Shown: one piece after another, positions 31,362 to 35,526 of the stretch | Numbering within the stretch: position 1 is the stretch's first letter | Layout of the letters: the number at the start of each line of letters is the position of its first letter | Assembly: GCF_012848855.1 (NCBI RefSeq) | Contig: NZ_CP051630.1 | Coordinates: 1,157,501-1,221,500 of the forward strand | Source of the DNA: Pyruvatibacter mobilis | GTDB taxonomy: Bacteria > Pseudomonadota > Alphaproteobacteria > CGMCC-115125 | Length of the DNA: 64,000 nucleotides | Reading direction: 5' to 3' | Notes under the pieces: model-generated | What the model was told of the DNA's origin: nothing | What the model saw: the letters and a program-made list of their open reading frames with translations, nothing else | Database searches by the model: none | Position numbers and translations under genes: made by a program

Positions 31362-31994
31362 ATGACGCAGATCGAAGACCTGTTTGCGCGCAACCGCCTT
31401 TGGGCGCAGCGTATCAAGGAGATCAATCCCGAGTTCTTCAGCACGCTGGCAAAACAACAGTCGCCTGAGTTCCTCTGGATCGGTTGCGCGGACAGCCGGG
31501 TTCCGGCCAATGAAATCATTGACCTGCCCCCTGGCGGTGTCTTCGTCCACCGCAACATCGCAAATGTCGTGGTGCCGTCTGACCTCAACTGTCTCTCGGT
31601 TATTCAGTATGCGGTTGAAGTGCTCGGCGTGAAACACATCATCGTGTGCGGGCATTATGGCTGCGGCGGCGTCAAGGCGTCGATGGAGGACGTCAATCAC
31701 GGTCTCATTGACAACTGGCTCGTGCATATCCGCGACGTCGCGCGTTTGCATGACGATGAGTTCAAGAAGGCGATGACCGAGGAAGAGAAGACGGATCGCC
31801 TGTGTGAACTCAACGTGATTGAGCAGGTGCGGAACGTTGCCAATACCACCATCATGCGGAATGCTTGGGCCAGCGGCTCCAAGGTGCAGGTGCATGGGTG
31901 GGTTTACTCGATTGCCGACGGTGTGGTGCATGGGTTGTGCACTCACACGAGCGAGGGCTTTCAGGAAAGCGTCGGCTCCAAGGCTGCCGAGTAG
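31362..31994 (+). CDS. can: Beta-class carbonic anhydrase
   Basis: 210-residue zinc enzyme interconverting CO2 and bicarbonate. The ligands fall at the same positions as in E. coli Can: Cys42 and Asp44 (IGCADSRVPANEI), His98 and Cys101 (VCGHYGCGGVKA). Start and end also fit (IEDLFARNRLWAQRIKEINP; VYSIADGVVHGL). It has no signal peptide and so supplies cytoplasmic bicarbonate. A bestrophin-like channel gene follows after 45 bases on the same strand, which suggests a shared job in bicarbonate or chloride handling. Confidence 0.97.
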   Translation: MTQIEDLFARNRLWAQRIKEINPEFFSTLAKQQSPEFLWIGCADSRVPANEIIDLPPGGVFVHRNIANVVVPSDLNCLSVIQYAVEVLGVKHIIVCGHYGCGGVKASMEDVNHGLIDNWLVHIRDVARLHDDEFKKAMTEEEKTDRLCELNVIEQVRNVANTTIMRNAWASGSKVQVHGWVYSIADGVVHGLCTHTSEGFQESVGSKAAE

Positions 31995-32039
31995 ACGGGT
32001 TCACCATTTTTCTTCTGACTGATCCGGAGCGGGTTCTCC

Positions 32040-33068
32040 ATGTATGTCCGCCGTAACATCCGTGCTTCTCATGTCTTCAATGATTCATGGCGTTTTCTGC
32101 TGGCTGTGGGTTTTTGGTCAGGGCTGATTGTCTATCTGTTCAAGTTCCAGGATGCCGAGTTCCTCGCGGTTCCCTTTCTGCCGGTGTCGACAATCGGCAT
32201 TGCGGTTGCGCTCTATCTCGGCTTCAAGAGCAACTCGTCCTACGGGCGCTGGTGGGAAGCGCGTCAGATCTGGGGAGCGATTATCAATGACAGCCGCAGC
32301 TGGGGAAACATGGTCTGCCATCTCGTTCATGACGAGAGCGGGCGGGTTGACCACGGGGCGCAGCGCGACTTGATCCGGCGCCACATCGCCTGGGTGAACG
32401 CACTGGCCTACCAGCTGCGCATCACCACGCGGCTCAAGGTGAAGCAGGAAACCCGCATCTTCGATTACCGCCGCGATATGGAGCATCACGACTTTCATCA
32501 GCGCAAGGAAAGCTATCTGCGCTATCTCGAGAGTGAAGAAATCGAGATCGTTGAGAAGTGCACCAATCCGGCGACACAGATTCTTCGACTCCAGGGAGCG
32601 GAGATTCGTGATCTCACTCTGGATGGTCAGCTTGATACCTATCGGGAAGTTGCCATGACTGACATGATCAGTCGTTTCTATGACAGTCAGGGCAAGTGCG
32701 AGCGTATCGACAAGACGCCGTTTCCGCGCCAGATCGCCTTTTTTGGAACTGTCTTTACCTGGCTCTTCGTGGTGCTGCTGCCGTTCGGATTTCTGGATGC
32801 CTTCCAGAAAGAGGTCGGCCAGCACAATCTGGTGGGGTGGATCGCAGACGATTACATGTTCGCCCTTGTTCCTTTTGTCATGCTCATCTCCTGGGTTTTC
32901 TACATCATGGAGAAGGTGAGTGACTCGACGGAAGATCCGTTTGAAGGCGGCGTTCACGACGTTCCGGTCTCGGCTCTGTCGACTACCATCGAAATCGATC
33001 TCAAGCAGATGATTGGGATGGATGATGTACCGGAACCGCTGAAGCCGATAGGCGACGTCCTCTACTGA
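32040..33068 (+). CDS. Bestrophin-family (UPF0187/YneE-like) ion channel
   Basis: 342-residue membrane protein of the bacterial bestrophin family. Family features: VFNDSWRFLLAVGFWSGLIV, LYLGFKSNSSYGRWWEARQIW (the conserved GFRTN/YxRWWE-type segment), ISRFYDSQGKCERIDKTPFP and the later PFGFLDAFQKE and SDSTEDPFEG, where the acidic DPFE stretch corresponds to the conserved calcium-clasp region of eukaryotic homologues. Four membrane segments are visible. Bestrophins form pentameric anion channels; eukaryotic ones pass chloride and bicarbonate, while a bacterial one passes cations. The carbonic anhydrase upstream favours an anion role here; this is inference. Confidence 0.93.
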   Translation: MYVRRNIRASHVFNDSWRFLLAVGFWSGLIVYLFKFQDAEFLAVPFLPVSTIGIAVALYLGFKSNSSYGRWWEARQIWGAIINDSRSWGNMVCHLVHDESGRVDHGAQRDLIRRHIAWVNALAYQLRITTRLKVKQETRIFDYRRDMEHHDFHQRKESYLRYLESEEIEIVEKCTNPATQILRLQGAEIRDLTLDGQLDTYREVAMTDMISRFYDSQGKCERIDKTPFPRQIAFFGTVFTWLFVVLLPFGFLDAFQKEVGQHNLVGWIADDYMFALVPFVMLISWVFYIMEKVSDSTEDPFEGGVHDVPVSALSTTIEIDLKQMIGMDDVPEPLKPIGDVLY

Positions 33069-33195
33069 TTTTATTTGCTCCGAAGACGGACGGTTTTCCC
33101 CGGGAGGCGTGGAAATTTACCTTTCGGAAACCATTCGGGCGCATCCTTTTGGAACGGTTTGTCGGGAACCGGCTTCAGCAGGATGCGAGGCGAAA

Positions 33196-33585
33196 ATGGC
33201 TCTCTGCCAGCTAGCATATGTCAGTGATATTGATCGGCCATGCAGCCCGGGTGATATCTCTAACCTGGTGCAAGCCGCCCGCCGCAACAATGTTCGCGAC
33301 AATATTACAGGCATTCTACTTGCCGGCCGGGGCGGGTTCATCCAACTCGTCGAGGGCCCACGTATGGCGGTGATTGGCCTTCTTGATCGGCTCGAAGCTG
33401 ATCCGCGTCATCACAACATGGTTGTTCTGCATCGTGGGGACGCGCATTTGCGTGCTTATCCGGACTGTCCGATGACATTTCAGTATGCGGATAGCGACAG
33501 CTTGAACCGGTTGGAAATGTCCGTGCCGGCCCTGTCATCAGGCCTGTGCTCCAAGCTGACAGCCGAGGCTGTCGGCCTGATCTGA
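33196..33585 (+). CDS. BLUF-domain blue-light photoreceptor, stand-alone
   Basis: 129-residue protein consisting of a single FAD-binding BLUF domain and a short C-terminal tail. The flavin-contacting residues have the exact spacing of AppA: Tyr8 (QLAYVS), Asn32 (AARRNNVRDNITGILL) and Gln50 (FIQLVEGP), with Met93 matching the conserved Met. The position of the semi-conserved Trp is Cys91 (DCPMTF). RLEADPRHHNM is the usual RH-containing segment. ATG 33196 follows GCGAGG; an in-frame extension to 33109 lacks family sequence. There is no output domain, so it must act through a partner. It lies 127 bases after the bestrophin gene on the same strand. Confidence 0.94.
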   Translation: MALCQLAYVSDIDRPCSPGDISNLVQAARRNNVRDNITGILLAGRGGFIQLVEGPRMAVIGLLDRLEADPRHHNMVVLHRGDAHLRAYPDCPMTFQYADSDSLNRLEMSVPALSSGLCSKLTAEAVGLI

Positions 33586-33602: not shown

Positions 33603-34715
33603 TTATCTTGAAAGCGGAATGCAGGCTGCGCCTGCGCCCTTAATGGCGGTACAGATGCGCCGGGCCGTTGCTTCATCCACCCCCTTGTATTGGGCGCGAT
33701 AGAGCGTGCCCGACGGGCGGGACAGGGGCGAGACAACAAGGTTGGCCTGTGCCAATTCCGGTGCTGTTTGCAGCGCTGCTGTGAGCTGTGCTCGGGCAGC
33801 AGCTTCGGTAGAGAAAGCACCAAGCTGGATGCCCCAATTGCCCGCTACGAGTGTGCCTCCGGCCGGCGTGGGAGCTGCGATGGCCGGGGCGGGAACGGCT
33901 TTCCCCGCCTGCGCCGCGGTGAGAGATGCCACGATCATGCGATCTGCATCTTCCGGTGAATTTGCGTTCCAGACGACGGCGATCACATCACGGTCGCCAC
34001 TGCGCGTACTTTTGGCGCGATTGACCGTGGGGGCGGGCTGGGTACCGCCCAGATTGGCGGAACTGTTGCCCGACAGTGCGCTGAGGAAACTCTGCGGGCC
34101 CTGATAGGTGCGCCCCTTCCAGGCAAAGCTGGTGCCGACAAGTCCCTTGGCGCGCTCAGGATGGGTGCGCATCAGGGCAAGGGAAAACAGGATCATGTCA
34201 CGCGGCGTCGAGAATTGCTGTGGGTGCGGTGCGCCGGAGATATTGGCGAAACGGGTCTGGGTAAGGCCGAGCTCCTTGGCCTTGGCGTTCATCTGAGCGA
34301 CGAAGCGCGCTTCCGAACCTGCCAGGAACTCAGCCAGTACAGCGGCCGCATCGTTGGCATTGACCGTGACTAGAGCATTGAGGGCATCACCCGCACTGAT
34401 CGTGTCAAAGTGGTTGAGGCCCAGGGTCGGCTGAGGCTGGCGGATAGCTGTGCCGGAGACGAAGATGTTTGTTTCGGGTTTGACGGTGCCGGCTTCGAAA
34501 GCTTCGAACATCAGGAAGATGGTCATCAGCTTTGGCAGAGCGGGGGCATTTTGGCGCGTGTCGGCGTTGTCGGCGTGCAGCACACTGCCGCTCCGCGCAT
34601 CGATGACCACAGCAGAAGCGGCCGCATGAGCGGGGCCCGACAGAGCGGAGCCGAAGATGGCTGTGCCCGAAAGAGCCAGCAGGCTTGCCAGGGCGGCTGT
34701 CACCAGAACGCGCAT
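33603..34715 (-). CDS. Penicillin-binding-fold (S11, DacA-like) protein with SPOR domain; catalytic Ser lost
   Basis: 370-residue exported protein. Signal peptide at 1-31 (MRVLVTAALASLLALSG...GPAHA), then a D-Ala-D-Ala carboxypeptidase-like domain (AVVIDARSGSVLHADNADTR; GLTQTRFANISGAPHPQQFS), then a C-terminal SPOR domain (WGIQLGAFSTEAAARAQLTA) that binds denuded peptidoglycan. The active-site SxxK is AxxK: Ala59-Leu-Pro-Lys62 in NAPALPKLMT. The SxN motif is Asn119-Ala-Asn121, and no KTG motif is visible. It is therefore probably not a peptidase but a structural or regulatory envelope protein. ATG 34713-34715 follows AGGGGAA. Divergent from another SPOR gene. Confidence 0.88.
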   Translation of the reverse strand: MRVLVTAALASLLALSGTAIFGSALSGPAHAAASAVVIDARSGSVLHADNADTRQNAPALPKLMTIFLMFEAFEAGTVKPETNIFVSGTAIRQPQPTLGLNHFDTISAGDALNALVTVNANDAAAVLAEFLAGSEARFVAQMNAKAKELGLTQTRFANISGAPHPQQFSTPRDMILFSLALMRTHPERAKGLVGTSFAWKGRTYQGPQSFLSALSGNSSANLGGTQPAPTVNRAKSTRSGDRDVIAVVWNANSPEDADRMIVASLTAAQAGKAVPAPAIAAPTPAGGTLVAGNWGIQLGAFSTEAAARAQLTAALQTAPELAQANLVVSPLSRPSGTLYRAQYKGVDEATARRICTAIKGAGAACIPLSR

Positions 34716-34911
34716 GAGGGTTTCCCCTGAAGTCGAGATCTCACCGAAGGTTGGCAAAGGATTTACCGCGTAACCTTACAATCAGTTTAATGGCAGGGAC
34801 AGGGTGTGTGCAGGGGCGGGGCAGCCTGCGAAATGTTTCTAATCCGGCAACACTTCCTTTACCCCGTTGGCTGAGCATACAGGCCAGACTTCCATATCGG
34901 GGAGAGGCCCC

Positions 34912-35526
34912 ATGTTCGCCCAGTTGCACACCATCCGGTTCGGTCGCCTTGTTGCGTCCCGTGAGGCACTCAACACGGTGCTCGCGGCGATGCTTCTTGT
35001 TGCATTGATCCTGTCGATGTCGACTGTGGCCAAGGCTGAAGACATCGCGGCCAACAGTCTTGAGAGCTATGATCGGGAGATGCTGACTTCGCTCATTGAA
35101 GCTGTGATTGCTGTTGATGAGGGCGATGCGGTCATCACCGCAGCCATTCCGCCGAGCGCCACCCGTCAGCCGGTGCCGGCCATGGGCCCCAAGAGCATCT
35201 TGCCGGGCCGAAATGCCGCCGTGGCGGATGCCCGCTCGGACATCGCGCCAGTGGCGCTTCAGGCAGATCCGGGCTTTGCCTTGCAGCTCGGCTCGTTTTC
35301 GTCTGCAGAAAACGCTCAGCGTGGATTTGAGCAGGCCAACCAGCAATATGCATCCGCCCTGTCGGAGCATACCCTTTATGTGCAGCCGGTCGATCTGGGC
35401 ACGCGGGGCGTGTTCCATCGCCTGCGCATTGGCGGGTTCGAAAGCCTGCCGCAAGCGTCCGCTGCCTGCACGTCGCTGGGCATAAGCGCTGCTGATTGCA
35501 TGATCGTGTCTGCTGCCCAGCAGTAA
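34912..35526 (+). CDS. SPOR domain-containing envelope protein
   Basis: 204-residue protein with one N-terminal hydrophobic segment (NTVLAAMLLVALILSMSTVA followed by KAED, either a membrane anchor or a long signal peptide), a low-complexity linker rich in Ala and Pro, and a C-terminal SPOR domain (FALQLGSFSSAENAQRGFEQ; VFHRLRIGGFESLPQASAAC). SPOR domains bind glycan strands lacking stem peptides, usually at division septa. ATG 34912 follows GGAGAGG. Divergently paired with the inactive DacA-like SPOR protein, 196 bases apart. Confidence 0.85.
   Translation: MFAQLHTIRFGRLVASREALNTVLAAMLLVALILSMSTVAKAEDIAANSLESYDREMLTSLIEAVIAVDEGDAVITAAIPPSATRQPVPAMGPKSILPGRNAAVADARSDIAPVALQADPGFALQLGSFSSAENAQRGFEQANQQYASALSEHTLYVQPVDLGTRGVFHRLRIGGFESLPQASAACTSLGISAADCMIVSAAQQ

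Follow-up and report, generated by a model that had tools for sequence, protein, structure and literature searches.

The analysed window, a stretch of 64,000 nucleotides of the Pyruvatibacter mobilis genome, carries on its minus strand an open reading frame that starts with an ATG at 34715, ends at 33603, and codes for a protein with a penicillin-binding fold followed by a SPOR domain. We refer to this gene as pseudo-S11/SPOR. A second SPOR gene is transcribed divergently from it, and the features of the pair are as follows:

33603..34715 (including the stop), minus strand: pseudo-S11/SPOR coding sequence, 370 aa (translation and Pfam)
34620..34715, minus strand: predicted signal peptide, residues 1-32, ending ...GPAHA-AA (sequence reading)
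33936..34619, minus strand: Peptidase_S11 (penicillin-binding) fold, residues 33-260 (Pfam 1.7e-38; AF2 match to 4k91)
34530..34541, minus strand: degenerate SxxK, Ala59-Leu-Pro-Lys62, with the Lys kept (alignment)
34353..34361, minus strand: degenerate SxN, Asn119-Ala-Asn121, with Asn121 kept (SAN in three orthologues)
34026..34070, minus strand: segment that replaces the KTG strand, residues 216-230, with predicted disorder (pLDDT <50 at 218-227; conserved-position map)
33945..33947, minus strand: Ala257, replacing an invariant Arg of active relatives (conserved-position map)
33618..33842, minus strand: SPOR domain, residues 292-366 (Pfam 2e-6)
34716..34911, no strand: intergenic region separating the two divergent SPOR genes (sequence reading)
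34912..35526, plus strand: divergent partner, a small protein of 204 aa that begins with a signal or anchor sequence and ends in a SPOR domain (Pfam SPOR 4.1e-10)

The signal peptide predicts a periplasmic protein. The Pfam Peptidase_S11 profile (PF00768, curated cut-off 27.6 bits) matches residues 26-252 with an E-value of 1.7e-38 and 132.9 bits, placing the protein within this family, and the closest solved structures by sequence are those of Pseudomonas PBP5 and E. coli PBP6. An AlphaFold model (mean pLDDT 84) has a PBP5-like fold, matching Pseudomonas PBP5 (4k91) with a Z of 24.8 and an rmsd of 3.3 over 231 residues at 29% identity. The Pfam match of the SPOR domain is modest, at 28.5 bits against a profile cut-off of 21. 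These matches bear out two claims of an earlier note on this DNA, namely that the fold-defining segments of a D-Ala-D-Ala carboxypeptidase are retained and that the protein ends in a SPOR domain.

Syntenic orthologues, 72-74% identical, are present in all four genomes sampled from the order (G000-G003), which represent four species of a single marine alphaproteobacterial genus (the Ca. Phaeomarinobacter / Pyruvatibacter group). The nucleophile serine of the SxxK motif is Ala59 in each of them, so that the AxxK whose conservation the earlier note had proposed to look for is found, as ALPK, in all four species. Outside this clade, every S11 sequence readable at the nucleophile column has a Ser there (110/110, from a comparison set of 113 other distinct sequences), which speaks against a chance occurrence of the alanine. 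An in-register KTG is likewise absent from the four orthologues; in the comparison set a KTG or KSG is missing in only a few of the 113 sequences, all of them cut or interrupted frames except L078, which has KNG. Column 257 holds R in 38/38 active rows and A in 4/4 pseudo rows, and two further residues that are near-invariant in active relatives, Asn208 and Gly219, are also lost. Lys62, Asn121 and Asp122 are retained, and NAN at the SxN position occurs in the window's species alone, the three other orthologues having SAN. The statement that all catalytic motifs had been lost is therefore a slight overstatement: it stands for the nucleophile serine and the in-register KTG, but not for Lys62, Asn121 and the SAN that is whole in three of the four orthologues. 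Judged by its residues, the protein almost certainly has no DD-carboxypeptidase activity.

The genome encodes three S11 proteins: pseudo-S11/SPOR, an active S11-SPOR protein, and one of the DacA/PBP5_C type. In the phylogenetic tree the four pseudo-S11/SPOR proteins form one clade (support 100/100) on a stem branch of 2.41, and this clade lies nearest to the S11-SPOR proteins of families f98 and f124 (96/86). The tree separates it from the resident active S11-SPOR gene, but an AU test does not reject a topology in which the two are joined (p = 0.38), so that pseudo-S11/SPOR may have come from a recent duplication of that gene or from elsewhere. No further dead S11-SPOR proteins of the class were found among the retrieved sequences, in which the motif-less cases were truncated or interrupted frames (L131, L141). 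These two S11-SPOR genes, L141 (in genome G005) and L131 (in G030), each have one in-frame stop, TAA and TGA respectively; both genomes are drafts, and the stops may reflect either faulty assembly or genuine decay.

Purifying selection on pseudo-S11/SPOR is strong. The dN/dS ratio is 0.026 for the G001/G003 pair, the sole pair with unsaturated dS, and 0.018 for the S11 domain alone in the same pair; the remaining pairs give rough values of about 0.06-0.10, since their dS is saturated. Within the genus, pseudo-S11/SPOR and the active S11-SPOR paralogue show comparable levels of protein identity. The gene order is also conserved within the genus, with genes for a carbonic anhydrase, a bestrophin and a BLUF protein followed by pseudo-S11/SPOR and the divergent SPOR gene and, on contigs that extend far enough, by a permease and Slt; around seven relatives beyond the genus, no conserved gene order was found. 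These data bear on the reading that the lost motifs merely reflect a decaying pseudogene or a sequencing error. The low S11 profile score (133 bits, compared with 201-229 bits in the active copies) and the long stem branch are what such a reading would predict, but its probability is negligible: an error is excluded because the same ALPK occurs in all four species, whose proteins share 72-74% identity and whose gene order is the same, and decay is ruled out by four open, syntenic frames with dN/dS far below 1.

Comparison of structure models points to a change in the cleft itself. In pseudo-S11/SPOR residues 218-227 have pLDDT values below 50 and are followed by just two strands (231-239 and 242-251), whereas in the model of an active relative used as control (L098), for which the same 42 sequences served as input, an additional strand bearing K214-T215-G216 is confidently predicted at 210-218, ahead of the same two strands. 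Because the low-confidence segment stands where the control has its KTG strand, the models indicate that the strand walling one side of the cleft is either absent from pseudo-S11/SPOR or disordered there. In penicillin-binding proteins the KTG strand holds the substrate in two ways, by backbone pairing and by binding of the carboxylate. The Arg of active relatives at column 257, replaced by Ala in all four orthologues, is one that we take to be Arg248 in E. coli PBP5 numbering.

It could still be imagined that the protein senses peptides or beta-lactams, with non-covalent binding of D-Ala-D-Ala stems or penicillin in the dead cleft and a signal that reports its occupancy. The cleft is in part under constraint, given that it retains Lys62, Asn121 and Asp122 and, in three of four orthologues, a whole SAN. 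However, the wall that grips the ligand and binds its carboxylate is gone, which makes sensing through the old active site less likely: the KTG strand is absent from the model, the putative Arg248 equivalent is Ala throughout, and the replaced KTG segment is among the least conserved stretches of the S11 domain. The loss of midcell placement in the E. coli PBP5 S44G mutant (PMC2909392) also speaks against a sensor, and we consider this possibility unlikely. The earlier suggestion that the protein uses its penicillin-binding fold to sense or bind peptidoglycan is weakened accordingly, as the peptide-gripping strand and the presumed arginine are both missing; peptidoglycan binding is more likely the task of the SPOR domain than of the S11 fold.

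A KTG tripeptide (VNRAKTGKAGDR) does occur in three of the orthologues (L005, L006 and L007), out of register and aligned with the following strand; this is perhaps a coincidence and perhaps a shifted strand. A hydrolase with a rebuilt site, in which for example Lys62 and an AKTG or AKST of the neighbouring strand replace the lost KTG, would make use of this tripeptide, which lies in what is now the edge strand of the sheet (the 235-237 region). Such a re-purposed enzyme is nonetheless very improbable, as no other serine takes over as nucleophile, KST rather than KTG is found in this region in the window's species, and the total length of the segment favours in-register replacement. The fixed Ser-to-Ala change, the lost KTG strand, the strong purifying selection and the conserved gene order instead uphold the description of the protein as a pseudoenzyme.

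The SPOR domain has kept what it would need for binding glycan. SPOR domains bind denuded (peptide-stripped) glycan through a conserved Gln, backbone contacts of an A-F pair, and a basic patch (PMC6895207). Comparison with the contacts of the RlpA SPOR domain described there shows that the glycan-contact signature of pseudo-S11/SPOR is kept, as a match of sequence only, in Q297, G299, A300, F301 and the basic-patch Arg R340. Both SPOR cysteines, C355 and C365, are also kept; a sequence search for a solved SPOR homologue gave no match. E. coli PBP5 with the S44G change is no longer placed at midcell (PMC2909392), and a dead S11 domain is therefore not expected to localise alone; the SPOR domain would have to do so. 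Placement of pseudo-S11/SPOR by its SPOR domain is probable, and a septal or peptidoglycan location is plausible.

The kept SPOR signature would also suit a purely structural wall binder that is tethered by SPOR, serves as a spacer or shields the glycan, owes only size and stability to its S11 domain and has no partner protein. The divergent pairing with a SPOR protein that lacks any enzymatic domain fits such a role, but the strong constraint on the S11 domain (dN/dS of 0.018 for G001/G003) suggests that the surface of this domain matters, and we regard a structural role as improbable, if somewhat less so than sensing.

The divergent partner (34912-35526) has no other known domain besides SPOR and adjoins pseudo-S11/SPOR in all four genomes of the genus. 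Among the genomes sampled, its full-length relatives are confined to the genus, and elsewhere only its SPOR end finds matches. A search of the region between the two genes (34716..34911) for sigma-70-type promoters and terminators found nothing beyond chance. The genome encodes six SPOR proteins, including the divergent pair, and one Amidase_3 protein, a source for making denuded glycan. The proposed partner enzymes are genetically unlinked to pseudo-S11/SPOR, except for an slt gene 2.2 kb away; this gene is part of a dapA-smpB housekeeping run, and its proximity was set aside as functional evidence. On the other side, the window holds at 31362-33585 (plus strand) a carbonic anhydrase gene, a bestrophin-like channel gene and a BLUF blue-light sensor gene in series, in an order conserved in the genus, which possibly form a light- or bicarbonate-linked cluster.

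Taken together, we favour, at a probability of roughly 0.6, the reading that pseudo-S11/SPOR is a dead relative of the alphaproteobacterial S11-SPOR carboxypeptidases of CrbA type, held on denuded glycan by its SPOR domain and acting as a competitor or adaptor in wall remodelling. The protein would be exported and would dock through its SPOR domain, at the septum or in the growth zone, on glycan denuded by amidase, and there the dead S11 domain may serve as a protein-binding module or a placeholder. It could then tune wall remodelling by competing with active enzymes or by recruiting them, the resident S11-SPOR carboxypeptidase being one candidate, in parallel to the degenerate LytM proteins (DipM, EnvC) that tune autolysins. 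By this analogy, the chances that it regulates by protein contact are about even. We only tentatively suggest the more specific role of an S11 counterpart of the dead LytM regulators, dedicated to peptidoglycan remodelling and working, where the cell divides or grows, as a pair with the small SPOR protein encoded divergently.

Among LytM-domain proteins, it is established that dead relatives control wall enzymes. If the role proposed here is confirmed, control by pseudoenzymes would extend to the main fold targeted by penicillin. In any case, the automatic label of D-alanyl-D-alanine carboxypeptidase is wrong for this protein. In a narrow search of the open-access literature we found no relevant report of dead S11 or PBP pseudoenzymes, dead S11-SPOR proteins included; one Mycobacterium paper describes motif exceptions, which are ascribed there to length differences.

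Among known systems, E. coli PBP5 and PBP6 and Pseudomonas PBP5 (4k91) share the S11 fold with pseudo-S11/SPOR, but they are active and carry a C-terminal PBP5_C domain and a membrane helix in place of SPOR. The active S11-SPOR protein of the same genome (G000:C1:1134326-1135072, in a 598-aa frame) has the same combination of S11 with a C-terminal SPOR domain; it differs in its intact SLTK, SAN and KTG motifs, in a far longer linker, and in being only about 33% identical. The degenerate LytM proteins DipM, EnvC and NlpD resemble the proposed regulator in having a peptidoglycan-hydrolase fold with a dead site and a regulatory role (PMC10336132), whereas their fold (M23) is unrelated, making this an analogy of mechanism only. 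CrbA of Caulobacter crescentus, compared here by its published description, is likewise a putative D,D-carboxypeptidase with a SPOR domain, associated with the divisome or the stalk; unlike pseudo-S11/SPOR, which is without the nucleophile and the KTG strand, it behaves as an active carboxypeptidase. Deletion of crbA leads to more pentapeptides, and CrbA influences the pattern of wall growth (PMC6373972). Its SPOR domain is bound by DipM, itself a dead LytM protein that activates or regulates autolysins (PMC10336132).
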